Assembly: GCA_034359265.1 (NCBI GenBank)
Contig: CP136895.1
Span: forward strand, 4,838,501-4,902,500
Direction: 5' to 3'
Origin: Canna indica
Lineage: Eukaryota; Streptophyta; Magnoliopsida; Zingiberales; Cannaceae
Length of the DNA: 64,000 nt
The translations under genes were made by a program, and so were the position numbers. This document shows, piece after piece, positions 2,268 to 46,300 of the stretch (position 1 is the stretch's first letter; each line of letters opens with the position of its first letter). The notes under the pieces are model-generated. The model did no database searches. It saw only the letters and a program-made list of their open reading frames with translations, and was not told where the DNA came from.

Positions 2268-4034
2268 CTACTCTTGCCGACGGAGCTCGTCGGTACTCAC
2301 GAACGTGCCGTGGAAGCCATAAGGAACCCTCGACGGCAGCCTCACCGTCGCCTCCAACTCCATGCTCCGCCCGTTAATGATCACCAGCTCCGACAAATCT
2401 CTACACTCATCGTGCACGAAGCCCACCACGAATCCCTCGTCCTCCTCCACGCTGATGTTAGAACGGACCGGGACAAACGTTGGCTCACCGCCGAACCGGC
2501 CCTCTCCGTAGTCGAACCGCCTGACTTCGCCTGTGACAAGGTCCACCTTGGCCATCCCGCTGCACCTGGGCCATGGCTCCGCGATCGCCATGTAGGCGAA
2601 CCGGGTCTTACTTCCGAGATAATCCCGGTTCACCTGACCCGCCTCCACGTTCAATCCTGGCGTGATCTCCCTCCGGCTCGACTCACCCGTATCCAGGTCG
2701 AGCCGGACCTCCGAGAGTACCGTCCGCATGGGCGCCACCCCGTCCTCGTCGGAGAATATGGCATCCGGAGGCGACATGCGAGGCCCGATGATCACCACCG
2801 TTCGCCCGCCGCCTTCGCTGGAGCGTTCCTCCCACGCATTCCACAGGTGGAAGAAGAAGCAGCCGGGCACGTCGATCCACCGGATCCTGGACTCGTTGGA
2901 GTCGTACTTCGGTAGAACCCCGAACTTTGGGGTCTTGCTGTCGTCGCACCGGACGGGAGAGCCGCCATGCAGCATCCTTGACAGCTCGAACACTACCTGT
3001 TGATCAGGTATTATAGCGTAGTTCTCGGTGATGGCAAAGTCGTGGGTCATGGTTGGTTGCGCGAGGGTGATCGGGACGTCGATTGTCTTCTTCCCACATG
3101 TAGGATTGACGCGGAAGTACTTCAAGTAGGGTTTTCGAATCACGTCGTAGCTCAGTGCAAATAGCTCGCCGGTGACGGGGTCGATCTTGGGGTGCGCTAT
3201 CATGGAGGAATCGAGCTGACCTGCGAAGCTGTACCGTCCCACCGTCTCGAGATCACCGTCAGGGGTGATGCGCACGTGGTATGGCAGGTCATCCTCAGAC
3301 ATGGCTAAGAGACGGCCGCCGAAGTACACGAGTCCAGCGTTCGCCACGCCCATGCCATTTGTGGAGTCTATGATCCCGGCAGAGGCTCGCAAATGGAACA
3401 AAGCAAGTCGGGCTACTCCCGAGTGGCCATGGAGCTCACCGATTGCCTTGGGAAAGATGGCGCGGCCAAGTGTAACCTCCTGCAGCAATCGACTCGTGCG
3501 GGTGAACCGGCAGGAATAGGAGGCCTCTGTTGGGCCAAGCAGCGAGACAACGTGGATCATGCCGTCACCATCGAAGAGGTGGTGCCCGCCAGATGGCTGG
3601 AACATCGGGTTGGCTCCATTGCGCGCGTAAACGCCAAACAAAGCTGATGGAATGCGACCGCTGACGTGTAGCCCGTCGACTGGGCCGGACAACTCGGTTA
3701 CCGGCGAAAAGTTGCCAGAGATCTGCACGGCGGGGTCTGCAGAGCGAGGAAGAGCACGGTTACCTTCCAATCCCGCAGCGATGCCGCACTCCACGACGTC
3801 GAGAACTGAACCCAGAACTTCCTGCATCGGATTCACAAGCGGTCGAGACGACGGAGCTCTGGGCGTCTCCAATGGAAGCGCCTCTGTCATTGTTCTCCTC
3901 TGAGTTAGCCCTTCAAGCACAGAAATCTTAGGAGAGATGAGAAGGTTCCTCCTAGAGGAAGAAAAGTGACAGGGTGCATTCTCGGCGTCTGTAGAGTGGA
4001 GTGAAACCCTGAATTTAATCGAGGGTATGGCCAT
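2268..4034 (-). CDS. CCD4: Carotenoid cleavage dioxygenase 4-like protein (plastidial)
   Basis: A single uninterrupted 588-codon frame, the usual length and intronless structure of many CCD4 genes. CCD4 enzymes oxidatively cleave C40 carotenoids, commonly at the 9,10 or 9',10' bond, in plastids and plastoglobules, and so set carotenoid levels and apocarotenoid volatiles. The four Fe(II)-binding histidines expected of a beta-propeller dioxygenase are present: H281 (AHPKIDP), H331 (MTHDFAIT), H396 (FFHLWNAW) and H575 (GFHGTF). The [19 protein letters not shown] block (141-159) is a family hallmark. The first ~50 residues are rich in Ser/Arg with few acids, fitting a chloroplast transit peptide. 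The start ATG sits in CCCATGGCC; a second ATG at codon 49 would lose most of that peptide. No frame damage is seen. Exact substrate cannot be read from sequence. Confidence 0.93.
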
Positions 4035-24700: not shown

Positions 24701-27700
24701 ATTCTTCTTTGTATCTCCATTCTTCATCTAAGTTATATGTAATTTTCGTCATGTCTTACGTGAATAACGATGGCATAGCATTGTGCATGTGATGGTTATT
24801 TTTTTTAGATAACTTAGGCAAACATCGCTTACCAAATTATATAAATATATAATTTTGTTTCTCACCAGCTGGTGCACAATATTTATAATTATATTACTTA
24901 GGTGGAGATCATGCAACATTATGCTTACAAATGTATGCATGTATGTCTCCTCTCTATTCAATCTCCATTTCTCTCATGCTAACTAGTGGAATTTTCTATT
25001 TAGCTCCTTATAAAATATTGACAAAAGATTAAGTAGTTAGGTGGTACAGTAGCTACTAAGTATTGTGCAATCAGCTTGATTACAATCTTCCTTCGGAGCA
25101 TGTATGTCTTCTCTCCATTCAATCTTACTTGGGCGACTTGATCAGTGATTCCCAAAATGCATTTATGTCGGGCAAAAGCACGTTGGATTGTTTTATGGGG
25201 GTGCATGAGGTGGTTTGGGCTTGTCATTGCTCGCACCAAGATGGTTTTCTCTTCAAGATTGATTTTGAGAAGGCATTCGACTCTATGGATTGGGGTTTTA
25301 TTATGAGAATGTTGGAGGCAAGGGGTTTCTTGGCAAAATGGATAGGTTGGATCTCTCATTTACTTAATACTGAATCCTCAATCCTTATTAATGGTGCTAT
25401 TGGCAGTCCCTTTCGTCATAAGAGAGGAGTTCGTCAAGGGAATTCCTTGTCACCATTTATATTCAATCTCGCTATGGACTGCCTCTCCCGCATTCTATCT
25501 ATGGCATCTCGGAGCAATCTCATTGATGGAGTTTTATCTAACCATATTGAAGGTGGTGTAACTCACTCATTATTTGCAGATGACCTGATTCTTTTTGGAT
25601 TGAATAAGGAGGATGGTTTGAGGAATCTATTATTTATTATGAAATGTTTTGAACTCGCATCTAGATTAAAGGTTAACTTAAACAAGACGGAGGTGGTCAG
25701 TCTTTGTGGCAATATTCATGCGGCGGAGCAGGTAGCCGGGATGCTTGGCTGTCAGGCATCATCTTTCCCTCTGAGTTATCTTGGGTTACCTCTCAAGATT
25801 GGGCGTCCGGTAAAGGCAGATTGGTTGGGTTTCATTGCTAAATTGGACGCTCGCTTTTCCACTTGGCAAGGCAAGTTGCTATCTCGTGTTGGAAGACTTC
25901 TATTGTTAAATTGCACCATCTCGAGCTCGGTGGCGTATCTGCTTTCTATTTTTCAAGCTCTGGATTGGGTTTTTAAATCTATTGATAAACGACGAAGAAA
26001 ATTCTTTTGGACGGGTCCTGATGCTGTTGCGGTAAATGGAAAGTGTCTTGTGGGGTGGGATACTATCACTTGTTCTAAAGAAGAAGGGGGTCTCGGTTTG
26101 TTAGATTTGAAGGCCCATTCTCTAGCTCGACGCAGTCGTTGGTTATGGAAGGTTATACAAGGGGATGACTTGTTTTGGGTTTGCTTGATGAGAAGCATTT
26201 GTGGAGATTTTCGAAACTGGTCCAGCACGAGTTTCAATCGGCAGGCTTCCCCCATTTGGTCTGATCTCTTAAAAGTGTTTGAATTGATGCTCTCGAGTAT
26301 TTCTTTTTCGGTTGGTGAAGGTCGGGATATTAGGCTCTGGACGGATCGTTGGTCTAATGGTTAGTCCTTGGCCGAGCTGCATCCTTCTCTGTTCATTCTT
26401 GCTCGTCATCCTTCGTGCTCTATCTTTGAAGCTCGGATTCTGGATGCAGATGGGAGATTCATTGGCTGGAATATTTCTTTTTCCTCTTGGGTTGAGTTTG
26501 ATAAGTTGTCTCATCTTGAGAGTGATCTGGAACCAATCAGATACAAATTTGGAGATGATATATTGAAATGGAAATGGTTCCAGGATATGGTCATTTTTCT
26601 TCTAAAAGCATGTATCGATTGCTAATGTTTCGAGGGGTGAAGAGTTCTGTCTTTTCGGTCCTCTGGAACAACAATCTACCTCCAAAGATTTCTATCTTTG
26701 GGTGGCTTTGGTTCCGGAGGCGGCTTCTAACTCGTGATAGATTATTACGGTGGGGGATTATTGTGGATGATTCTTGCCTTCTATGCCTCATTGGAAAGGA
26801 ATCTCATATCCATTTATTTTCTGATTGCACTTTCACTCGTCGAGGATGGAGGTGCTTCCTATCACTTGTGGATTCATCGTTTATCTCACTCGATTGTGTT
26901 CGTTCTTTGCATACTTATGATGGAGCTGGGAAGGATCAGTGGAAGTTGATGTTGATTTGGAACTGGTTTCTATGGTTCGAGAGGAATTCTAGAGCATTTA
27001 TGTATGTTTGTTCTAGTTATCAGGAGCTTGCTGCGTCAGTGGCAAATTTCTTCCGGCTCTGTTCATCGTGATTGGAAGCTTGAATGTGCTGTAGAAAAAT
27101 AAGAGTGGTCACTGCCTATCTGTTTTTCTTCTTCTCCTTGGTTGTTTTTTTGTGTGTATTTTGATTTCTTTGCCCATCTCCCCTTTACACTGTAACTCTT
27201 CATTACTTATGAATGGTATACAGTTTTCAGTTTAAAAAAAAAAACTAGAATTTAGAGGAATTTTATCATTTAGCTCCTAATGAAGTATTAACCATAGTTT
27301 TAAAATTCGTATCGTACCGCTTGGTATGGGCGATAGGGGTGAGCATCGGTTCGGTTCGGTTAAAAACCGAACCGAAAATTCGGTTAACCGAATCGAACCA
27401 AAGAAAAAATTTTAACCGTTTACCGAACCGAAAAAATTCGGTTAATTCGGTTCGGTTCGGTTAACCGAAAAGATAAAAAAAATTTCAAAGCATGCATGAG
27501 GACTCGAACTCGGCCAACTGAGAATTAGATTTTAATTTTTACCCTTCTAACCATCTTAGCAAACATTACTATCAATTTATATATAACTAACACATATTAT
27601 ATATATATCGAATGTTAAATAAAGATTATTACACAACATGGGATTCGAACCCGGGCGGCAGAAATGTTAAACATAACACTTAACCACCAAGACAAATGCC

Positions 27701-27721
27701 AAGATCTAATATATCTGTTAT

Positions 27722-27752
<31 letters not shown>

Positions 27753-28334
27753 ATACATATATATTCGGTTAATTCGGTAAATTAACCGAACCGTCGGTTA
27801 ATTCACCGAACCGAAAACCGAACCGAAAACCGAACCGAAAACCGAACCCAAAAATTTCTTTAACCGAAAACCGAACCAAAATTAATTCGGTTAATTCGGT
27901 TCGGTTAAATCGGTTTCGGTTCGGTCGGTTTCGGTTCGGTTTCGGTGAATCGGTGAAGTTTGCTCACCCCTAATGGGCGATACTTACCTGTTTTTCAAAA
28001 ACCGGTATCCTGTACACCCGGTACCAGTCGGTACCATGTGTACCGATACATACCGGGCATACCGCCCGGTATTTTATAATCCCGCCCATATGGGGCGGTA
28101 CCATACCCGGTATCGGGTGGTATCGCCCCAGTATGAGTGCAGTCAGTATGGTGCAGAGCACCACACTTCTGCACCATACTGAACACCACACTGAGTATGG
28201 TGCTCTGCGCCATACTTTAGTACCGTATCGTACCGAGTTGGTATGGTACTGGTCAAATACCAGTACTGCCGTACTGGTACTAGTATTTAAAACGTTGGTA
28301 TTGACAAATGCCAAGATCTAATATATCTGTTATT

Positions 28335-28368
<34 letters not shown>

Positions 28369-31300
28369 ATACATATATATTCGGTTAATTCGGTAAATTA
28401 ACCGAACCGTCGGTTAATTCACCGAACCGAACCGAAAACCGAACCCAAAAATTTCTTTAACCGAAAACCGAACCAAAATTAATTCGGTTAATTCGGTTCG
28501 GTTAAATCGGTTTCGGTTCGGTTTCGGTGAATCGGTGAAGTTTGCTCACCCCTAATGGGCGAAAGCGTGCTTCTCAAATTGGTCACGGGTTACTAAGAAC
28601 ACTGGAACAACTTGAGGAAATGAAAGCTTGAAAGCTTCAAGAAACTTGATTAAGCAAATATGATTACAGAAGGGAAAAGTAGAACTCTTCGGTGGTTCCG
28701 GAGTATGTTCTGCAATTCCATAGTCACACCTATTTATAAGGTAAAGAGAAGTCTCTCGAAGAGGCTCAATAAGTGAGTGCGGGTGTTCATTGGACCCCAT
28801 CGTCCACTCACTTGATTAGCCTTTACAGTGCGAGAATCTCAATTATTTCTCTAGTATACTGGTCATACAGCTGTTTGCCAGTAAAGTAGTGCTGGCCAGC
28901 GCAAAAGTGAAAGTATTGCCATCATGCCTTTTGTATTATTGTCCTTTGTTATTCTTCTTGTCGGCCTTATCTCCTCATCAGATTAGATTGTATCTGGTGC
29001 TGGAATAGAGGTTGCTGTTGCTGCTGCTGACGATCATTTTGTGACATGACTCTAGGTTTTTGATGTGGTGAGTCAGTGGTTTGATATCATCTTCGGCATA
29101 TTTATCAGCAGACTGTTCTAATCTGGCTTTCTGCAAGTAAGCCATTGCTAGTAGTCCTTGAAGTTCTGTGAGGACTACCCTTGTTTGTTCTTGATGAATC
29201 TGGATTAGTTTGTTGGTCCATTCATCCACTTCTTCCAGCGAGTAGATTTCTCCGTACATTAAGTTGCATGACAATCTCTCGACCTCCTCTAATTTTTGTG
29301 AACCGCTGAGAACGGCCCAGTGCTGGGAGGCCATAATTGCTCTTTTGGTTGAGGCATATGTTTTTCTACAGGCATCTGCAAGTTGCTTCAGCTGGTCTAT
29401 AATCATCTGCATAAAGAAACAAATTAGATCTAATATAGATAACTTGGAATTTTTATAGAGGGGTTATCCTTCCCCTGCAATTATTTGCTGACAAGGTTAT
29501 TGCTTCCTTGGTAAATATTTGTTAACGGGATTTTTACTTTCCCGGCAAGCATTTGTTAAGGGGGTTCTTGCTTCCCCCTGTCTGGTTCAGATTCCTCAGT
29601 TATCTTTGGAGGGACGATGCTCCCTCCTGTATTTTTCCATCATTTCTTCTACTTCCTCGTCTGCGGTGCGTAGCCTTTTTGCAAATTTTCTCATAGCTTT
29701 CTTGAGCATCTTTTCCTCTTCCTTCCATAGGTTGAAGTCGGCTTGTCTGTCTTCAGTTGTAATATCTTCTTCCTTTTCATCTCGAGTTGTGGAGCTTTCT
29801 GGCTGCTCCAGTTTGAGCTTGCTCATCATTTCATCGAATTCTCGGTCTCTTTCATTTTCGAATTCTTCTGTAGGAGGTTGGTCATAGTTTGCGAATCGAA
29901 TTATGACACCTTCCTCTTCTTCTAGCTCTCGCCAGTATGGGATGTTGGCCCATCTAGGCCAGTCATCTGCATTCTCTGCTATTTTCTGCTCCATGGCTGT
30001 TTTGGCTACTTGAATTTCCTCAGTTCGTGGGGTTTCCTCATTCATCCTTCTTCTAAATTCAGTCATGTAGTCTTCGTAATATGGGACCTCTCCCATTCTT
30101 ACAGGTGAACCATAATAGAAGCTGTTTTCAGGGTAGTAATTATGATAGTCATAAACATCATCTTGATCTGCGAACTCTTCTAGCAGAATGCTAATGGCTT
30201 CAGCGTTGTTCTCTAGGTCGTCTGCTGTCTCATTTGTCCAATCAGTGACTGCCATTTTTACTATTTGTGTAGATAGAGTCTGATCTATCTGGATTACTGC
30301 CTTGTTGAGTTGTTGTATAATCCTCTGTGGAGGCTGATTACCCTTTGCTTCTTTGAGGGCTTCCTCGAGTTGTACCAGGTGCTGGTTGGTTGAATCGGTT
30401 GGCTCTTGAATTTGAATCAGATGAACCGTGAGTCTTGAGAGCGCGTCCGCCAATGAGTTTAATTTGCCGTCAATGTGCTCGAAATTTATTTGAACTCCCG
30501 TACCTGTTATATAATCCAAGAAGTTTAACCATCGGACTCTGGACGGTTTTGTTGAGGCAGATTTATTGTAAAAACTGATTATTGCTTGGCAATCCGTCCT
30601 TAGGGTGATCTCCTTTTGATCTAAATAATGAATTTTAAGGGCCCTTAGAGTCTCCATGCAGGCAAATATTTCAGCATCAATAGCTGATTTTGTTACGGGG
30701 AATTTCCCGCTTGCATAAGCGCAGACTCTTTCCATGCTTCGGGGGTCATTCTTCATCGGTTTCCATTTGCAAACCCCCCCCCATCCTTCCATACATCCGT
30801 CAGTTTCGAGGATGATGTGGGCTCCTGGAGCTGGTAGTTCTAAATCCGGGAGTGCCTGGACTACCGTTTTGATTTTGGATATGAGTTGGATATCCGAAGG
30901 TTTTAGGCGTTTGTCTCCTTGAGGTCCCGTTTTGGAGTATAAGGGACCAAGCAGTGTACCAAGATTGGGGATGTATGACCTCGCATAGTTTAATAGGCCT
31001 AACCACGATCGAAGGCCCGTTTTACTTTTAAGCTGTTCCGTGTCGAAGCTTATTATCTTCTTGATAATATGAGGTTGTAACTTGATCTTGCTGTTACCTA
31101 TGATAGCCCCAAGGAACTCAATTTCTTGAGTTGCTATCTTCATCTTGGTTGGGGATAGCACTAATCCCCACTTCTCACAGATCTTTAGCATGGTCTCAAG
31201 ATGCTTCGCATGCTCTTTCTCATTTTCTGAAAAGATGAGTATGTCGTCGATGTATACTGCTATGAACTCTTCCGTGCCAGCAAAGCATTGGTCCATCTTC

Positions 31301-34300
31301 CTTTGGAATACTGCTGGCGCATTCTTCAATCCGAATGGCATGACCAGCCATTCATATAACCCTCCGGGTACTATAAAAGCGGTCCATGGAATAGACTCAG
31401 TGTCCATGGCCACCTGGTGGAAACCACTTTTCAAGTCGAATTTTGAAAAGATTCGACTATTTCCTATTCTCTTAAGAATTGTGTTGATGCCGGGCAAGCT
31501 GTATTGGTCTTTATGGGTGTTGTCATTCAGAGTCCGATAATTAAAGACCATGCGTTCCTTACCCCTTACTTCTTTCCCAGTGGTTGGGTCCACAGTTGTG
31601 CCTGAGTTAACTATAATAGCCATAGTTCTATGGCGGCTTGTACTCGGTCTGATTGCTCCTATTTTCAATAGTGCCTTCACGTGTCTATCATATTGCTCTT
31701 TCATGAGAGGGCTGATATGCTTAAGAGGCTTGTCTTGTATAGTCAGATCTGGGTTAATGATGTCCAGTCTGCACGTGATTTGATTTTTGGCCCAATGTTG
31801 GGCCGGGTTTTCTCCAATGAAACCCTGTTCCTTTAGCCTGTTTAGGAGCGGGCTGAATTTTTGTTTGAAGCTTACAGATTCCTGGAATTTGTCATAAGCG
31901 ACTGCGTTCTGAACTTCCAGATATTCTTCTTCTGTTAAGCTGAGTTCTTCTATAGACGTAGAATTCAGAATTTCTGTGTCTAATCTTGTGTTTATGGTGG
32001 TTACTTTCTTGTAGAATGTAACTGTTTGTTCTTCAATCCGGACTCCCCCTTGCATAGCCCGAATAAAGTTACACCCTATCAGCATCTGTATGCCATCCCT
32101 TTTGCCCATTGGGAAGGCATATGTGAATGGTATCTTGAACTTATTGTCCTCAATACTCATTAGTCCTCCTTTCAGTCTCATTTTGGCCATTTGCTGAGAA
32201 TTAACCCCATTAATTTGGATTGGGAATGCACTTGGCTCCAGTGACTCTGATGGTATAGAGTCTTGATCAATACAGCAGACTGTGGCTCCAGTATCCAGAA
32301 TAGCTTGTACCTTGAATGGCTTGACGTTAGGAATTTCCATTATTATCTCCATATTGTAGAGTCTATTCAGGACTCTTCTTCCTTTGTGGATCCCTTGGTA
32401 TATAGAGGTGATATCTTCCTCATTTACTGATTCCAATGCAGCTTTGGATGCTGCTTCCCTGAAGATAATCCCGGGTGTCTTTATGGTAATTTCCTCTTCG
32501 TCTTCATCTATCCAAGCCGATTTCCCTTTCTCTTTCCTTCTGTCTTTATTGATGTTTAGGTCTCCAAATTCTTCCTCCAGATTTTTGAGGTCTCTGGATA
32601 GTTGAACATCAACGAGTTCTTGTTTGACTCGCTCATTTTCAGTCAAGAGAAATGTCACATACTCTAGAAGTTCTTTGATTAGAGTATCCTTCTCATCATA
32701 CGGTCTGAGTGGTGCTCGTTTGATGATGATTTTTCGTCCGAGGCTGAACCTCGAACACATGGGGCATACTGTTAGTAAGCATTTTCTGCAGTGAGAGCGC
32801 ATATTCGGGTTTGTAGGCTCTTTGCACATTGTACATCTGTCGTATCCTTTTGTGACATCTGTATTGTCTTCCCATGTATGGATACACTCTCTCATTTCAG
32901 TAGGTAGTGTTACTGTGACTCGCCATGAGTATTCTGGTTCTTTTGTGGTGACTACGAATATTGTTTCGAATGGGTAGTCATTGTAATCGATGGCAAGCTT
33001 TGTTGCATGCCCTGATTCACCTTCAGAGAAGGAGCAGATTCCTTCACTATCAGGTTCATCGAGATCGACTGAGACAACATCCCAGTCGTTGGTGAGGTCT
33101 AAGTTCTCCATGACAGCAGCTCGTGCAATGTTTCCATGTTTTCCTTTGCAGTCGCGGGCGAAGTGTCCTTCCTCCCCGCAAATGAAACATTTGCACTTAC
33201 GAACTTTGTCTGCATACTTCCTTTTGAAGATTCGAACATGAGTGTTGTGAGGTTTGCCCTTGTAGGATGTGGACTTCCGCAAACCGTATTTCTTCTCTTT
33301 TTGGTAGTACCCGGGTTATGGGTATCTGAGCACAAATTGATAAGTCTTTCAGACTTCTGGCTAGAGCAGCTTTCTTGCATTGGTCTTCTATGTAGTTGTA
33401 AGTAAAGTGGATTCTGGGAAATAGCCCAACTTGACATCCAGTGTACTTAGCGAAGAATGCTACCTCTAGTTCTCTTCCCAAAATAGGCGGCATCTTCTTG
33501 AAGAATTTGTCTGAAATTTCTGTGGACACAAATAGTCTTCCTGATTTTGCTGCCAGTATTTTGTAGTCATTAATGTAGCTCAGGAGATCTTTAACGTTAT
33601 GACAGGAGAGTCTTTCAAGATCTTCGTAAGCACGGGTCTGTTCTTCTGTTGACCCAGTGGTGGGGTCTTCCATCATGAACATTCGCCTCACTTGTGACAA
33701 AATGTTTTGAGGATCTTCAGCGATGCCCGTGATTTCCTCATATTCAGCAGGGTAGGCCATTCTCCATTGAATCCAGGCCTTCTTCTCAATCTCTCCGAGT
33801 AGGTTTTCCACATAACACATTTTTGACTTGTTATCTGGCCAGTTCCTTTCATTCAGAAGATTTAATGTGATGGATTCCCATCGGGATATTACATCAGCAT
33901 ACTGGCCAACGTTTTCAGGTAGCACTAGGATTGCTCCTGCATTCACTTGAGCGGTAGGAAGATTGTATACTTCAGAATGGTACTTAGAGTATCCTCCTCT
34001 TAGTTTTCCTACTCTTGAGGTTATTGTCGGTATATTCTGTGGTAACTGTGGTGTTACTCGTCCGGGTGGGTACTGAGCAGGTCCCATAATAGGTTCTCTA
34101 GGGACCCTTGTTGTGCTGGATTCAGCCGTTGAGAAAGCAGTCTCAGTCTTTTGGATCTTCTCAGTCTTTTGGATCAACTCCTTGATCATCGGGTAGTCAA
34201 GCTCTACTGTATATGCTGTTTGTTTATCTTCCTTTTGTCTACATGTATCATATTTCTCAGCATAATAGTTGTAGAAATCTGAGGAGTCGTCTTCGTCATC

Positions 34301-37300
34301 ATCTGTCTCTGAAGTATCCCATTTGGGAGGGACTTCAGCATCACTCTTATCTGCTTCTTCGTCATCAGCTTGCAATGTCCAGAGGTTTTGGAGAGCCTCT
34401 TCTTCTTCTTCGAAGTGGTAAGTGTCGTCCCAATCTTTTTCTTGTTCTTCAAACAACCAGAAATCATCATCATCACAGGTTAAGACATTGACTGATTCTT
34501 GTGCTAGATCATCTTCTACTTCAGATAATCTCGCTGTTGTGTCAGGGGCGGTTGTATAGTTTGTGAAGTTGAGCATAAGAGCTCCGTCTGATCTGGTTTG
34601 AATGTTTGCTACTTGTGGGTTCTGAGGGTTTGGTAGAAGTGCTGGTCTGATTATCCATTGTCTCCCTTGGAGACTTGCTGTTGTTCTGGGCTGTCCTGGG
34701 ATTGCCCTGATTCCTCTGCTTGCAAGGTGGTCTGCTACATGCTGAACATTGTAGCGGAAATTTGTATGGCTATTGTTTGACAGTCGTCCAATTAAGGATC
34801 TTGATAATAGGAGGTTGCTTTCGCCTCCTTGCCAACCTTCGTAGCCGTGTGTTTGAACTACCAGTTGAATATGCTCTCTAAAGTCGTGGATACTTAGAGT
34901 CATGTCGGGGGCTGCATAGGCTAGTTGAATTCCCGTGGAAAGATCGATCTCCATGGAGCTAATGACTGCCCTGTCATCAGCCCATCTGGTATCTCTGAGT
35001 AGAACCAGTGCATTGACTCCCGCATTTCTGCGGTGGAGAGTTTGTAGCCTTATCATTATCATGCCCATATGAAGGTGCTGGAGCCCTGCTTGAACTAGCA
35101 GGTTGTAGCTCTGGTCGGTGATAAAGGGGAGCTCTACTTGTGCTCCTTCAGTGACTAGAATTCTTTCATCAGAGTAGTGTTGGTATACTCTGTGTTGACG
35201 TTCTGCCCAGCCTGCTTGGTACAGGGTCTCGGCGGGTACTTGTTGTGCTCTCTGGTATTGAGAGATGGATAACTCCGCTTCTGGGTCAATTTGTGATTCT
35301 AGACTTCTGTTGAAGGTCCGTCCAGTAGACCTTGAGGAGAGGCGCCGTTGTGCCGAATGGCGCAATCTGCTGGCTAAACGATAACCACGGATCTGGTCAT
35401 CAATAGTCGGTTGTAGGTTTCCTTGGTTGGAAATCGAAGCCCTTGGAGGAGCCACGTCAGTTCTTGTGGTACTCATTTTCTTAGTTTGACTTTTTCTTCT
35501 TCCAAAATGATCTTAGGGTCTTTAAATACGTATAATTTTCCCTTAAGCTTTGGAAGTGAGGCTTTGGGTTGTTCACCCAGTTGTAGCTTTTGTAGATCTT
35601 TTGTAAGCGAGTCTATAGAGCTCGCAAGATCTTCAGGGTTTGCTAAGCCTTTGTTTATAGATTTTTCTTTGAGAGACTTGACTTCAAGTTTCAGAGAGTC
35701 AAGTTCTTCTTTGATTTTAACAGTGAGCTGAATAAGAACGTTCAGCTGTTTAACAATAACTTCAGAAGGTTTCTGAAGGTTTGTGGTGTTTAGTGAGACA
35801 AATCCTACTGCAGGACTGCCAAGATTCTCTGTAGCTTGCAAAGCTTGTGTGTATGAAGTGCTAGCAGCAGTTAACTTCCAATCACTCATAAAATGAAAAA
35901 TACGAAGCTTTATATGACTTAAATGAAGGACGTTTGATTGTTTCCTCTAAGTTTGGCTTAAGATTACGAATGTAGCGGGATTCTTCCTCTATGTGTGAGT
36001 ACTGCCACCCTCGTTATCGCCTATCTTAAGGTTCGTTTACAGAAAACAATTTATGCGCCCTAATTTAAGTGCGTATAAAACTAGGTATTAAGCAAAGTAT
36101 GTGTACCAGAGGGTATACGCCCTAATTTTATCCTGGTATCAGAGCTTCTTTCAAGGTACACATACTAGGTATTAAGCAAAGTATGTGTACCTTGAAAGAA
36201 GCTCTGATACCAGGATAAAATTAGGGCGTATACCCTCTGGTACACATACTTTGCTTAATACCTAGTTTTATACGCACTTAAATTAGGGCGCATAAATTGT
36301 TTTCTGTAAACGAACCTTAAGATAGGCGATAACGAGGGTGGCAGTACTCACACATAGAGGAAGAATCCCGCTACATTCGTAATCTTAAGCCAAACTTAGA
36401 GGAAACAATCAAACGTCCTTCATTTAAGTCATATAAAGCTTCGTATTTTTCATTTTATGAGTGATTGGAAGTTAACTGCTGCTAGCACTTCATACACACA
36501 AGCTTTGCAAGCTACAGAGAATCTTGGCAGTCCTGCAGTAGGATTTGTCTCACTAAACACCACAAACCTTCAGAAACCTTCTGAAGTTATTGTTAAACAG
36601 CTGAACGTTCTTATTCAGCTCACTGTTAAAATCAAAGAAGAACTTGACTCTCTGAAACTTGAAGTCAAGTCTCTCAAAGAAAAATCTATAAACAAAGGCT
36701 TAGCAAACCCTGAAGATCTTGCGAGCTCTATAGACTCGCTTACAAAAGATCTACAAAAGCTACAACTGGGTGAACAACCCAAAGCCTCACTTCCAAAGCT
36801 TAAGGGAAAATTATACGTATTTAAAGACCCTAAGATCATTTTGGAAGAAGAAAAAGCCAAACTAAGAAAATGAGTACCACAAGAACTGACGTGGCTCCTC
36901 CAAGGGCTTCGATTTCCAACCAAGGAAACCTACAACCGACTATTGATGACCAGATCCGTGGTTATCGTTTAGCCAGCAGATTGCGCCATTCGGCACAACG
37001 GCGCCTCTCCTCAAGGTCTACTGGACGGACCTTCAACAGAAGTCTAGAATCACAAATTGACCCAGAAGCGGAGTTATCCATCTCTCAATACCAGAGAGCA
37101 CAACAAGTACCCGCCGAGACCCTGTACCAAGCAGGCTGGGCAGAACGTCAACACAGAGTATACCAACACTACTCTGATGAAAGAATTCTAGTCACTGAAG
37201 GAGCACAAGTAGAGCTCCCCTTTATCACCGACCAGAGCTACAACCTGCTAGTTCAAGCAGGGCTCCAGCACCTTCATATGGGCATGATAATGATAAGGCT

Positions 37301-40300
37301 ACAAACTCTCCACCGCAGAAATGCGGGAGTCAATGCACTGGTTCTACTCAGAGATACCAGATGGGCTGATGACAGGGCAGTCATTAGCTCCATGGAGATC
37401 GATCTTTCCACGGGAATTCAACTAGCCTATGCAGCCCCCGACATGACTCTAAGTATCCACGACTTTAGAGAGCATATTCAACTGGTAGTTCAAACACACG
37501 GCTACGAAGGTTGGCAAGGAGGCGAAAGCAACCTCCTATTATCAAGATCCTTAATTGGACGACTGTCAAACAATAGCCATACAAATTTCCGCTACAATGT
37601 TCAGCATGTAGCAGACCACCTTGCAAGCAGAGGAATCAGGGCAATCCCAGGACAGCCCAGAACAACAGCAAGTCTCCAAGGGAGACAATGGATAATCAGA
37701 CCAGCACTTCTACCAAACCCTCAGAACCCACAAGTAGCAAACATTCAAACCAGATCAGACGGAGCTCTTATGCTCAACTTCACAAACTATACAACCGCCC
37801 CTGACACAACAGCGAGATTATCTGAAGTAGAAGATGATCTAGCACAAGAATCAGTCAATGTCTTAACCTGTGATGATGATGATTTCTGGTTGTTTGAAGA
37901 ACAAGAAAAAGATTGGGACGACACTTACCACTTCGAAGAAGAAGAAGAGGCTCTCCAAAACCTCTGGACATTGCAAGCTGATGACGAAGAAGCAGATAAG
38001 AGTGATGCTGAAGTCCCTCCCAAATGGGATACTTCAGAGACAGATGATGACGAAGACGACTCCTCAGATTTCTACAACTATTATGCTGAGAAATATGATA
38101 CATGTAGACAAAAGGAAGATAAACAAACAGCATATACAGTAGAGCTTGACTACCCGATGATCAAGGAGTTGATCCAAAAGACTGAGAAGATCCAAAAGAC
38201 TGAGACTGCTTTCTCAACGGCTGAATCCAGCACAACAAGGGTCCCTAGAGAACCTATTATGGGACCTGCTCAGTACCCACCCGGACGAGTAACACCACAG
38301 TTACCACAGAATATACCGACAATAACCTCAAGAGTAGGAAAACTAAGAGGAGGATACTCTAAGTACCATTCTGAAGTATACAATCTTCCTACCGCTCAAG
38401 TGAATGCAGGAGCAATCCTAGTGCTACCTGAAAACGTTGGCCAGTATGCTGATGTAATATCCCGATGGGAATCCATCACATTAAATCTTCTGAATGAAAG
38501 GAACTGGCCAGATAACAAGTCAAAAATGTGTTATGTGGAAAACCTACTCGGAGAGATTGAGAAGAAGGCCTGGATTCAATGGAGAATGGCCTACCCTGCT
38601 GAATATGAGGAAATCACGGGCATCGCTGAAGATCCTCAAAACATTTTGTCACAAGTGAGGCGAATGTTCATGATGGAAGACCCCACCACTGGGTCAACAG
38701 AAGAACAGACCCGTGCTTACGAAGATCTTGAAAGACTCTCCTGTCATAACGTTAAAGATCTCCTGAGCTACATTAATGACTACAAAATACTGGCAGCAAA
38801 ATCAGGAAGACTATTTGTGTCCACAGAAATTTCAGACAAATTCTTCAAGAAGATGCCGCCTATTTTGGGAAGAGAACTAGAGGTAGCATTCTTCGCTAAG
38901 TACACTGGATGTCAAGTTGGGCTATTTCCCAGAATCCACTTTACTTACAACTACATAGAAGACCAATGCAAGAAAGCTGCTCTAGCCAGAAGTCTGAAAG
39001 ACTTATCAATTTGTGCTCAGATACCCATAACCCGGGTACTACCAAAAAGAGAAGAAATACGGTTTGCGGAAGTCCACATCCTACAAGGGCAAACCTCACA
39101 ACACTCATGTTCGAATCTTCAAAAGGAAGTATGCAGACAAAGTTCGTAAGTGCAAATGTTTCATTTGCGGGGAGGAAGGACACTTCGCCCGCGACTGCAA
39201 AGGAAAACATGGAAACATTGCACGAGCTGCTGTCATGGAGAACTTAGACCTCACCAACGACTGGGATGTTGTCTCAGTCGATCTCGATGAACCTGATAGT
39301 GAAGGAATCTGCTCCTTCTCTGAAGGTGAATCAGGGCATGCAACAAAGCTTGCCATCGATTACAATGACTACCCATTCGAAACAATATTCGTAGTCACCA
39401 CAAAAGAACCAGAATACTCATGGCGAGTCACAGTAACACTACCTACTGAAATGAGAGAGTGTATCCATACATGGGAAGACAATACAGATGTCACAAAAGG
39501 ATACGACAGATGTACAATGTGCAAAGAGCCTACAAACCCGAATATGCGCTCTCACTGCAGAAAATGCTTACTAACAGTATGCCCCATGTGTTCGAGGTTC
39601 AGCCTCGGACGAAAAATCATCATCAAACGAGCACCACTCAGACCGTATGATGAGAAGGATACTCTAATCAAAGAACTTCTAGAGTATGTGACATTTCTCT
39701 TGACTGAAAATGAGCGAGTCAAACAAGAACTCGTTGATGTTCAACTATCCAGAGACCTCAAAAATCTGGAGGAAGAATTTGGAGACCTAAACATCAATAA
39801 AGACAGAAGGAAAGAGAAAGGGAAATCGGCTTGGATAGATGAAGACGAAGAGGAAATTACCATAAAGACACCCGGGATTATCTTCAGGGAAGCAGCATCC
39901 AAAGCTGCATTGGAATCAGTAAATGAGGAAGATATCACCTCTATATACCAAGGGATCCACAAAGGAAGAAGAGTCCTGAATAGACTCTACAATATGGAGA
40001 TAATAATGGAAATTCCTAACGTCAAGCCATTCAAGGTACAAGCTATTCTGGATACTGGAGCCACAGTCTGCTGTATTGATCAAGACTCTATACCATCAGA
40101 GTCACTGGAGCCAAGTGCATTCCCAATCCAAATTAATGGGGTTAATTCTCAGCAAATGGCCAAAATGAGACTGAAAGGAGGACTAATGAGTATTGAGGAC
40201 AATAAGTTCAAGATACCATTCACATATGCCTTCCCAATGGGCAAAAGGGATGGCATACAGATGCTGATAGGGTGTAACTTTATTCGGGCTATGCAAGGGG

Positions 40301-43300
40301 GAGTCCGGATTGAAGAACAAACAGTTACATTCTACAAGAAAGTAACCACCATAAACACAAGATTAGACACAGAAATTCTGAATTCTACGTCTATAGAAGA
40401 ACTCAGCTTAACAGAAGAAGAATATCTGGAAGTTCAGAACGCAGTCGCTTATGACAAATTCCAGGAATCTGTAAGCTTCAAACAAAAATTCAGCCCGCTC
40501 CTAAACAGGCTAAAGGAACAGGGTTTCATTGGAGAAAACCCGGCCCAACATTGGGCCAAAAATCAAATCACGTGCAGACTGGACATCATTAACCCAGATC
40601 TGACTATACAAGACAAGCCTCTTAAGCATATCAGCCCTCTCATGAAAGAGCAATATGATAGACACGTGAAGGCACTATTGAAAATAGGAGCAATCAGACC
40701 GAGTACAAGCCGCCATAGAACTATGGCTATTATAGTTAACTCAGGCACAACTGTGGACCCAACCACTGGGAAAGAAGTAAGGGGTAAGGAACGCATGGTC
40801 TTTAATTATCGGACTCTGAATGACAACACCCATAAAGACCAATACAGCTTGCCCGGCATCAACACAATTCTTAAGAGAATAGGAAATAGTCGAATCTTTT
40901 CAAAATTCGACTTGAAAAGTGGTTTCCACCAGGTGGCCATGGACACTGAGTCTATTCCATGGACCGCTTTTATAGTACCCGGAGGGTTATATGAATGGCT
41001 GGTCATGCCATTCGGATTGAAGAATGCGCCAGCAGTATTCCAAAGGAAGATGGACCAATGCTTTGCTGGCACGGAAGAGTTCATAGCAGTATACATCGAC
41101 GACATACTCATCTTTTCAGAAAATGAGAAAGAGCATGCGAAGCATCTTGAGACCATGCTAAAGATCTGTGAGAAGTGGGGATTAGTGCTATCCCCAACCA
41201 AGATGAAGATAGCAACTCAAGAAATTGAGTTCCTTGGGGCTATCATAGGTAACAGCAAGATCAAGTTACAACCTCATATTATCAAGAAGATAATAAGCTT
41301 CGACACGGAACAGCTTAAAAGTAAAACGGGCCTTCGATCGTGGTTAGGCCTATTAAACTATGCGAGGTCATACATCCCCAATCTTGGTACACTGCTTGGT
41401 CCCTTATACTCCAAAACGGGACCTCAAGGAGACAAACGCCTAAAACCTTCGGATATCCAACTCATATCCAAAATCAAAACGGTAGTCCAGGCACTCCCGG
41501 ATTTAGAACTACCAGCTCCAGGAGCCCACATCATCCTCGAAACTGACGGATGTATGGAAGGATGGGGGGGGTTTGCAAATGGAAACCGATGAAGAATGAC
41601 CCCCGAAGCATGGAAAGAGTCTGCGCTTATGCAAGCGGGAAATTCCCCGTAACAAAATCAGCTATTGATGCTGAAATATTTGCCTGCATGGAGACTCTAA
41701 GGGCCCTTAAAATTCATTATTTAGATCAAAAGGAGATCACCCTAAGGACGGATTGCCAAGCAATAATCAGTTTTTACAATAAATCTGCCTCAACAAAACC
41801 GTCCAGAGTCCGATGGTTAAACTTCTTGGATTATATAACAGGTACGGGAGTTCAAATAAATTTCGAGCACATTGACGGCAAATTAAACTCATTGGCGGAC
41901 GCGCTCTCAAGACTCACGGTTCATCTGATTCAAATTCAAGAGCCAACCGATTCAACCAACCAGCACCTGGTACAACTCGAGGAAGCCCTCAAAGAAGCAA
42001 AGGGTAATCAGCCTCCACAGAGGATTATACAACAACTCAACAAGGCAGTAATCCAGATAGATCAGACTCTATCTACACAAATAGTAAAAATGGCAGTCAC
42101 TGATTGGACAAATGAGACAGCAGACGACCTAGAGAACAACGCTGAAGCCATTAGCATTCTGCTAGAAGAGTTCGCAGATCAAGATGATGTTTATGACTAT
42201 CATAATTACTACCCTGAAAACAGCTTCTATTATGGTTCACCTGTAAGAATGGGAGAGGTCCCATATTACGAAGACTACATGACTGAATTTAGAAGAAGGA
42301 TGAATGAGGAAACCCCACGAACTGAGGAAATTCAAGTAGCCAAAACAGCCATGGAGCAGAAAATAGCAGAGAATGCAGATGACTGGCCTAGATGGGCCAA
42401 CATCCCATACTGGCGAGAGCTAGAAGAAGAGGAAGGTGTCATAATTCGATTCGCAAACTATGACCAACCTCCTACAGAAGAATTCGAAAATGAAAGAGAC
42501 CGAGAATTCGATGAAATGATGAGCAAGCTCAAACTGGAGCAGCCAGAAAGCTCCACAACTCGAGATGAAAAGGAAGAAGATATTACAACTGAAGACAGAC
42601 AAGCCGACTTCAACCTATGGAAGGAAGAGGAAAAGATGCTCAAGAAAGCTATGAGAAAATTTGCAAAAAGGCTACGCACCGCAGACGAGGAAGTAGAAGA
42701 AATGATGGAAAAATACAGGAGGGAGCATCGTCCCTCCAAAGATAACTGAGGAATCTGAACCAGACAGGGGGAAGCAAGAACCCCCTTAACAAATGCTTGC
42801 CGGGAAAGTAAAAATCCCGTTAACAAATATTTACCAAGGAAGCAATAACCTTGTCAGCAAATAATTGCAGGGGAAGGATAACCCCTCTATAAAAATTCCA
42901 AGTTATCTATATTAGATCTAATTTGTTTCTTTATGCAGATGATTATAGACCAGCTGAAGCAACTTGCAGATGCCTGTAGAAAAACATATGCCTCAACCAA
43001 AAGAGCAATTATGGCCTCCCAGCACTGGGCCGTTCTCAGCGGTTCACAAAAATTAGAGGAGGTCGAGAGATTGTCATGCAACTTAATGTACGGAGAAATC
43101 TACTCGCTGGAAGAAGTGGATGAATGGACCAACAAACTAATCCAGATTCATCAAGAACAAACAAGGGTAGTCCTCACAGAACTTCAAGGACTACTAGCAA
43201 TGGCTTACTTGCAGAAAGCCAGATTAGAACAGTCTGCTGATAAATATGCCGAAGATGATATCAAACCACTGACTCACCACATCAAAAACCTAGAGTCATG

Positions 43301-46300
43301 TCACAAAATGATCGTCAGCAGCAGCAACAGCAACCTCTATTCCAGCACCAGATACAATCTAATCTGATGAGGAGATAAGGCCGACAAGAAGAATAACAAA
43401 GGACAATAATACAAAAGGCATGATGGCAATACTTTCACTTTTGCGCTGGCCAGCACTACTTTACTGGCAAACAGCTGTATGAACAGTATACTAGAGAAAT
43501 AATTGAGATTCTCGCACTGTAAAGGCTAATCAAGTGAGTGGACGATGGGGTCCAATGAACACCCGCACTCACTTATTGAGCCTCTTCGAGAGACTTCTCT
43601 TTACCTTATAAATAGGTGTGACTATGGAATTGCAGAACATACTCCGGAACCACCGAAGAGTTCTACTTTTCCCTTCTGTAATCATATTTGCTTAATCAAG
43701 TTTCTTGAAGCTTTCAAGCTTTCATTTCCTCAAGTTGTTCCAGTGTTCTTAGTAACCCGTGACCAATTTGAGAAGCACACTTTCCGTTTTATCCTGGTAT
43801 TTACCTGTTTTTCAAAAACCGGTATCCTGTACACCCGGTACCAGTCGGTACCATGTGTACCGATAAATACCGGGCATACCGCCCGGTATTTTATAATCCC
43901 GCCCATATGGGGCGGTACCATACCCGGTATCGGGTGGTATCGCCCCAGTATGAGTGCAGTCAGTATGGTGCAGAGCACCACACTTCTGCACCATACTGAA
44001 CACCACGCTGAGTATGGTGCTCTGCGCCATACTTTAGTACCGTATCGTACCGAGTTGGTATGGTACTGGTACTAGTATTTAAAACGTTGGTATTGACAAA
44101 ATGATTAAGTAGCTATGTGGTACGTTGGCTACTTTATGCAGCAAGCTTGATCACAATATCTTCCTTAGGAGAGCCACCAAGTCTCTCTATATATATATTA
44201 TCAAATGTGTGCTTTACCTGTTTCAAGGACTAAGATGCAAGAAGAATATATGGGAAGAGAGTAGTTGTTCAAGTTGGTGACTGAAAGGAACAAAGGGCTT
44301 GTAACATTTATGTGGCTGATCAGTTGTATGGGTTGATTACATGATTACATTGCCTCCTGGGGCTTCTTTTCCTGTTCTGTTATAACCTTCAACGAATGTG
44401 CTATGAATCCTTTCATGTTCAATCTCATAGTTGTGCAAATATTTTTTGAAATATTTCTTCATTTCTTCATTTTCCTAATTAAAATGTATGGTATGTGATT
44501 ACTGAAATTTTATTTATATGCTTTTACATCATGCATAGGTAGGAGTACAACAAAAACCTGATGATATCAAGACAGAGTACCAACCTTATACGAATCAGTG
44601 TTTATAAGGACCAGGTTAGCAACTAATGTCTGGCATGTTGAATTGATATGTCAATATGTCATATATGTTAAGTTGGGATGCTAATCTTATTTTTTAATTG
44701 CTTCTGTTCTATAAGCTCAAAATAATATTTTAATGGTTAATCACATGTCATCCTTATTGATATTTAGGTTACTTTCACTTTTCATTTTGACAGTTGCTTA
44801 TAAATTTTTATATAAGATTATGCATCCACCATTTTGAAATGAGTGAAAAAGACTTTCTGGTTTAATATAACCTTTATAATAAGTTGCTTTTGGATTTAGT
44901 TGTAACTCATTTTCTTCATTTAACATAAATAAAAACAGTTAGACTGGTTTTCTATTAGCCTAGACCATACCTTCTACAGCCAGAAATCAGAAGAGGGGGG
45001 GTGGGGTGTGGCAAACTCTTAAATCGGGACTCAGGGTCAGGCGACATATGGCCGGCTGCCGCGCGTGGAGTAGGAACCATTCACGTAGATCGAGCGAGAT
45101 GAGGCCAGACTGTCTATCACAACGCTTAGGGTGGGGATGATGTTGGCCTCCTTCGTGGTTTCCGGCGGGGGGGGGGGGGGACGCTAGCTGGTGGCCAGGC
45201 TAGTAATTGGCTCCCGCTGGCTGTGTGTGGAGACAATGAAGACTGGTCATGGCCGACATGGTCTGTGTTTGAGCAGTTGAGCAGGGCGACGATGTCTGGC
45301 CAGCTACTCGCCTATCTCGGTGCCGGTGAGGCCCCGGGTAGACAACATAGACTTGGAGAGGGAGCTCGGGGAGATCAGAGACGCTGACCGTGCAAGGAGA
45401 ATAAGATGACTGGAAGAATGATGGAATCGGAAGTTCGAGATTGGAAAGGGGGAAATTTAGGGATTTTAATTTTTCTCAAGATGGGAGGCAAAACATGGAC
45501 AAGGGGGGCAAAATTGCCCTTTCCCCTAGGGAAATTTCCCCCCTCCTGCCAAGTGTAGCTCCGCCAGTGCTTATACACAATGGATACTTTGTTGTTAGCT
45601 TATTGATGTTTTGTGCTGCTTGGACTACTGGTACATAGAGCCTCAGATGTTCTTTAAGTTGAACAGATTAGAGGCTGTTAAAGTATCTTCTTAAAGTATT
45701 TTTATTTCATTCTTATAAGTGCTAGAATAGGTTACTTTGTTGTATACCTCATTACCTCCTCCCTATTATATCATGGACCCTCTCTATATATACTGAGGCA
45801 AATTTAAGTTATTACTCCTAAGCATAAAACAAGATCAAAGTATGCATGTACCAGCTTGGCGGGACAGCAAGGTATATCTATCCAACAGCCAACACCAATG
45901 AGAAGTTGAGAACTGTCTGTGTATAATGTTAAATATGTGGTTATATGGACAACACCAAAGCAGCCTTGATATTGAAACTTCCTAACCTCTTTACGTAATG
46001 AGTACAGGAAATGAGGCAAATTTAATTTATTATTTCAATAAGCATAGAAGGAGATCCATTGTGCAAACAACATGACCAGTGTGTTGGGGCAGCAGCATAT
46101 TGTACATATCGACTGTGCTCTTACAGCCAACACCAACAAAAAGTGTCTGTGCGTATGATCTGTGGTTCTATAGACAACACCCAACAGCCTTGACATTGAA
46201 ACTTCCTAACCTCTTCACAAAATGTTGACAGCAACCTTACTATTTTCTGTGAGTATGCTTATTGCATAATACCAATTAATACAATGCATAAGCATCCATA

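Follow-up and report, generated by a model that had tools for sequence, protein, structure and literature searches.

Head-to-head pairs of near-full-length endogenous caulimovirid genomes in Canna indica and their possible origin by fold-back self-copying before integration

A 64,000-nucleotide stretch of the Canna indica genome (C6:4838501-4902500, hereafter the window) was found to carry two near-complete genomes of an endogenous caulimovirid, arranged head to head as an almost perfect palindrome (Table 1). The inverted repeat, 28561-36166 and 36180-43784, was detected by two methods, and alignment of the left arm (7606 nt) with the right arm (7605 nt) gave 7602 identical columns out of 7606, with three mismatches and one gap. 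The palindrome was regarded as real and not a chance match, because it extended over 7.6 kb at 99.9%, while the next longest inverted match among those listed in the window covered only 420 columns at 76%. The window contained no N. Each arm corresponded to a near-complete genome opened at the tRNA-Met primer-binding site (PBS), giving the same arrangement as the pair known from cotton, namely two near-full-length copies with their heads together and their ends at the PBS. The arm alignment and the Pfam domains described below confirmed the palindromic head-to-head pair proposed in an initial annotation of this DNA, with some corrections: the spacer was 13 nt (36167-36179) and not 15 bp, the mirror constant of 72346 applied near the center but became 72345 outside the single indel, and the extent of 28561..43800 was viral throughout, although 43785-43800 was present only on the right side and lay outside the mirror. 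We lean towards the view that the inverted dimer was formed before integration through fold-back self-copying and was then inserted by end joining.

The center of the palindrome was compared with the leaders of other viral copies, using a leader probe against the host genome (752.9 Mb, 9 contigs). The probe gave at least 82 matches, and as 40 of 141 candidates were scored, the counts given here are lower bounds. In L004, L005 and L007, the leader continued from upstream through the PBS straight into the leader of the first open reading frame (ORF1), and the block 36167-36238 was missing. Since the leaders of other copies passed the PBS without this block, the central block of the window was judged to be a rearrangement, and a natural hairpin of the viral leader, which the window alone had suggested, was rejected. 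The two PBS copies at the center flanked the spacer inside an inner palindrome. Gap-free matches over the 18-nt filler were the window's own only, among the leader-probe matches listed. The start of the filler and the three bases before it matched the leader at 36280 over 11 nt, a pattern resembling that of templated end joining. The center can be read as a PBS end (8 nt upstream of the site) followed by the filler, a portion of leader and a second mirror point. At this second point, a 3-nt inverted match, also present in the ordinary leader, enclosed a 13-nt loop.

The host insertion site gave information on the order of events. The insert was located in the second copy of a 612-bp host tandem pair, with flanks colinear with the first copy; the two tandem copies showed two mismatches in 550 ungapped columns, along with 75 gap columns. 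When the flanks of the second copy were joined and compared with the first, three host nucleotides had been lost and no target-site duplication was present. Two nucleotides were shared at the left virus/host joint, and TA repeats were located at 28334-28380. The absence of target-site duplication, the small loss and the nearby TA repeats agreed with capture by end joining, and TA repeats near endogenous caulimovirids have been reported previously (PMC10377300; PMC4241990). At either end, the mirror stopped approximately 16 nt or less from the virus/host border, leaving the host flanks unmirrored. These features argued for a dimer that predates its insertion, and against both in-place duplication and a chimeric-read artefact.

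Two further pairs were identified in the same genome. At C4:81.70 Mb, a head-to-head arrangement of two near-full-length copies aligned over 7402 columns at 97.9%, with 83 mismatches and 73 gap columns, and the pair at C9:38.10 Mb showed an inverted match of 6348 columns at 99.98%, with one mismatch and an 848-nt spacer. The locus at C7:74.88 Mb had the same head-to-head topology, with a right copy that was cut short and parts without overlap. At C2:12.157 Mb, a full-length copy stopped approximately 15 nt before the PBS and was followed by fragments of its own sequence in inverted orientation (identities of 168/168 and 928/930). In the three near-full-length pairs, one side of the joint was close to the PBS, at -8 in the window, -8 at C4 (one base uncertain) and -4 at C9, and the partner side lay inside the genome, at about +21, +28 and +858, respectively. 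The structure, described as unusual in the initial annotation, deserves that rating only in part, as two more pairs exist in this genome and one has been published in cotton (PMC10458927). Tail orientation predicted additional pairs at C7:17.68, C2:66.59 and C7:2.36 Mb, and none of the three was upheld in the central stretches; two contained shuffled or same-strand pieces and one contained a 467-nt inverted tail.

The polyprotein frame in the window was broken at one place common to both arms, and the right arm alone had an additional break. The common lesion was a one-nucleotide length difference, which was absent from all 14 rows spanning this position (12 distinct other copies, with six partial rows left out). 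As the lesion was shared by the arms and absent from those copies, both arms were considered to trace to one lesion-bearing sequence. The shared lesion and the loop-type spacer favor self-copying of one molecule, although two sister molecules bearing that lesion could also have given rise to the arms.

The positions at which viral copies break also pointed to the PBS. The 40 leader copies were sorted into classes by hand, and 24 of them read through the PBS without the central block of the window, 14 loci were broken between -15 and +30 of the PBS (16 ends in total, with two each from the window and C4), and two were broken further in (L019 and L021). The homology ended between -200 and -16 in 12 of the 24 read-through copies (11 by BLAST and L036 by eye). 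Consequently, 16 of 28 breaks fell within 46 of 231 nt, that is, -15 to +30 within -200 to +30 (binomial p = 1.6e-5), or 14 of 26 when one end was counted per locus (p = 1.3e-4); some copies are related, and these p values serve as guides only. The partner at the 14 PBS-broken loci was an inverted viral piece in seven and a same-orientation piece in three (L003, L010 and L017), with none detected in four. No clustering is claimed for the right-hand ends obtained with the tail probe, as local alignments were trimmed near the end of the probe. In reverse transcription, the 3' end of the minus strand comes to lie a few nucleotides beyond the point where the strand began. The ends at the window, C4 and C9 fit such a displaced 3' end, and the minus-strand discontinuity has been placed at the Met-tRNA site (PMC5902531).

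A possible course of events starts from this strand end. The minus strand begins at the tRNA-Met PBS and, after one round, ends a few nucleotides past it. In one molecule, the 3' end may have failed in circle closure and acquired a short filler, and the same end may then have folded back to prime synthesis on its own leader, so that a copy of the genome was made and a dimer with its heads together resulted. Near the center, a second fold-back at the 3-nt inverted match with its 13-nt loop would convert the dimer into an almost perfect palindrome, and host end joining could have placed it in a break beside the TA repeats without target-site duplication. The fold-back priming, the order of the steps and the polymerase used are what we infer here. 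This course was supported by the copy at C2:12.157 Mb, because it ends near the PBS and runs into inverted self-pieces, and by the recurrence of pairs at C4 and C9 with one side of the joint consistently next to the PBS. The spacer edged by a short inverted match (13 and 3 nt in the window) lent further support, being the published signature of fold-back duplication (PMC3907307).

Several points weigh against fold-back self-copying. Near-full-length pairs total only three in the genome search, the excess of inverted over same-orientation partners among the PBS-broken loci (7:3) was not significant (p = 0.17), and the inverted matches were short (3 nt in the window and 1 nt at C4) and may reflect chance. 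The window also requires a second step that is unneeded at C4 and C9. In addition, one infection could have supplied two sister genomes, each bearing the lesion, whose ends were then joined to one another. The latter case belongs to a rather unlikely origin, in which two separate linear sister genomes opened at the PBS were end-joined head to head and inserted together. It would account for the clustering of ends at the PBS, the resemblance of the filler to end joining, and the C4 joint, where neither end is more than 30 nt from the PBS. It accounts less well for arms sharing a lesion absent from 12 other copies, and for partner ends far inside the genome at C9 (+858), C2 and C7, the C2 copy moreover having inverted self-pieces.

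Insertion of a single genome followed by inverted duplication in the chromosome, through replication error or break-induced copying, is improbable. Palindrome centers are prone to such copying, and a late origin is possible for some inverted pieces in this genome, such as those at C5:39.29 Mb; here the mirror ended no more than about 16 nt from either virus/host border and included no host DNA. Among the three origins offered in the initial annotation, insertion of an already inverted dimer therefore fitted best, and in-place duplication and break-induced copying were disfavored by the unmirrored host DNA, the end of the mirror near the border and the uninterrupted tandem copy. An artefact of assembly or of the library, such as a chimeric read that forms a palindrome, looks very unlikely: near-perfect palindromes are a known artefact type, but the arms differ at four places, the host flanks differ, the viral ends are unequal and the filler is locus-specific, and there are two other pairs with other spacers and a reported precedent in cotton (PMC10458927).

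The viral genes were examined by submitting the polyprotein frames of the window in pieces to a Pfam search. Coat protein (1.2e-37), the retroviral protease RVP (9.5e-10), RVT_1 (1.1e-34) and RNase H (8.1e-10) were detected together with a zinc knuckle and the caulimovirid protease, and a movement protein (30K) match was just below the cut-off (1.7e-4, 21.7 bits versus 23). This domain set is that of Caulimoviridae, with a single long polyprotein frame in three sister copies, and the exact 12-nt tRNA-Met PBS, found also in the leaders of other copies, agreed with this family. The three sister copies (C9, C2 and C4) encode an ORF of approximately 137 aa, one polyprotein of 1952-1971 aa and an ORF of approximately 146 aa. 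Badnaviruses have two small ORFs ahead of the polyprotein ORF and need none behind it. The layout here, in which a single small ORF lies on either side of the polyprotein, differed from this, leaving the term badnavirus-like in the initial annotation unsupported and the genus assignment unsettled. A search of viral contigs gave no relative, and Rfam and tRNA scans gave no match. The predicted model of the reverse transcriptase had a pLDDT of 37 and was set aside.

A substitution rate of 7e-9 per site was used for dating. Three substitutions in 7605 sites gave about 28,000 generations (6,000-82,000) for the window pair, in line with the recent event that had been proposed. The same rate gave 11,000 generations (300-63,000) for the C9 pair and 809,000 (644,000-1,003,000) for the C4 pair, which looks far older than the other two. 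Gene conversion is ignored in these values, and conversion between the arms would lower the apparent age.

The presumed pregenomic promoters face outward, and if they have this function, neither would drive the ORFs of its own arm in the linear layout. A head-to-head pair should thus yield no pregenomic RNA, unlike head-to-tail arrays, and a transcript across the center would form a long hairpin. The route by which plant genomes capture caulimovirid DNA was called speculative in a 2023 review (PMC10377300). The three mirror pairs and the breaks clustered at the minus-strand end suggest a concrete intermediate, namely linear DNA opened at the PBS and sometimes self-copied. Only tentatively, we propose that self-priming of the minus-strand 3' end may be a regular failure of pararetroviral reverse transcription, generating full-length inverted dimers that are repeatedly captured by plant chromosomes and leaving the host with virus hairpins that give no pregenomic RNA and could feed antiviral small RNAs.

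Several observations were made beside the pairs. At L060 (C7:2356491), the match to the viral right end ran to precisely the final position of the 12-nt PBS, which is the end point predicted for a plus strand that had copied 12 nt of the primer tRNA. To the left of the C9 pair, L044 contained a divergent caulimovirid zinc knuckle (1655-1789, 42% aa identity), and the neighboring pair started at an inverted joint that adjoined a PBS-like sequence. L054/L055 at C5:39.29 Mb was a complex locus with direct and inverted viral repeats, 98-100% identical and up to 3626 columns long, and L003, L009, L012, L023 and L058 had clusters of short viral pieces that were shuffled and lay in both orientations, as if the DNA had been shattered and then rejoined. 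Four equal-scoring tail matches on one strand with a 2583-bp period were present at C6:50884078-50892247, where a viral fragment is apparently now a tandem array. In the window itself, LINE-like pieces with reverse transcriptase and zf-RVT matches (25063-27071, +) were located just upstream of the insert, and a 9-cis-epoxycarotenoid dioxygenase-like gene with a single frame of 588 aa was found at 2268-4034 (-).

Table 1. Viral and host features in the window (positions count from its first nucleotide).
Feature	Position	Mirror position	Strand
Left arm, near-complete caulimovirid genome, head toward center	28561..36166		-
Spacer, 13 nt, portion of ordinary leader, edged by 3-nt inverted match	36167..36179		.
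Right arm, same genome mirrored	36180..43784		+
Viral end without left counterpart, final bases equal to first 6 nt of PBS	43785..43800		+
Exact tRNA-Met PBS within central rearranged block	36134..36145	36201-36212	+
Exact tRNA-Met PBS within central rearranged block	36201..36212	36134-36145	-
Filler, 18 nt	36221..36238	36108-36125	.
Small first ORF, 138 aa, no accepted Pfam family	36457..36873	35473-35889	+
Polyprotein gene (movement, coat, zinc knuckle, protease, RT, RNase H)	36870..42749	29596-35476 (frames)	+
Small third ORF, 144 aa, no accepted Pfam family	42933..43367	28978-29412	+
TATAAATA, presumed pregenomic promoter, upstream of PBS, facing outward	43607..43614	on left arm	+
Host tandem copy 1, uninterrupted, paralogous empty site	27691..28302		.
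Host tandem copy 2, portion left of insert	28303..28562		.
Host tandem copy 2, portion right of insert	43801..44103		.

Related structures have been described in other systems. The endogenous RTBV-like segments of rice resemble the present copies in that their ends prefer the intergenic region and the strand discontinuities and are flanked by AT repeats, but they are rearranged, and no full-length mirror pair is described in the accessible text (PMC526188). Inverted, duplicated and truncated endogenous pararetroviruses are reported in tomato, tobacco, rice and banana (PMC1899175; PMC10377300), mostly as partial pieces in contrast to the near-full-length arms here, and the inverted repeats in tomato have been reported to yield 22-nt siRNAs (Valli 2023, via the review PMC10377300). 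The PVCV arrays of petunia are likewise multicopy endogenous caulimovirids, but consist of direct head-to-tail copies that permit read-through transcripts, whereas the presumed promoters here face outward (PMC10377300). Fold-back chromosomal inverted duplications likewise have an inter-arm spacer edged by a short inverted match; those cases are large human chromosomal duplications, while the present one is 7.6-kb viral DNA at a natural strand end (PMC3907307). The models of hepadnavirus linear-DNA or 'head-to-head' integration similarly bring the ends of a reverse-transcribed DNA virus into host end joining, but concern an animal virus and are models rather than an observed structure (PMC8398950). 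In the literature searched, with most subscription papers outside the search, we found no mechanism for head-to-head caulimovirid pairs, nor any printed account of their recurrence in one genome, the end clustering or the fold-back anatomy. The closest counterpart is the eCPRVE locus on cotton chromosome A04, which spans approximately 15 kb and contains two full-size head-to-head caulimovirid copies, 98.98% identical and bounded, as in the window, by Met-tRNA PBS motifs; it differs in the virus (which has a transactivator gene), the plant and the lower similarity of the arms, and the accessible portion of its published description gives no joining mechanism (PMC10458927). The head-to-head full-length structure itself is thus already known from cotton, and the window locus adds another member.

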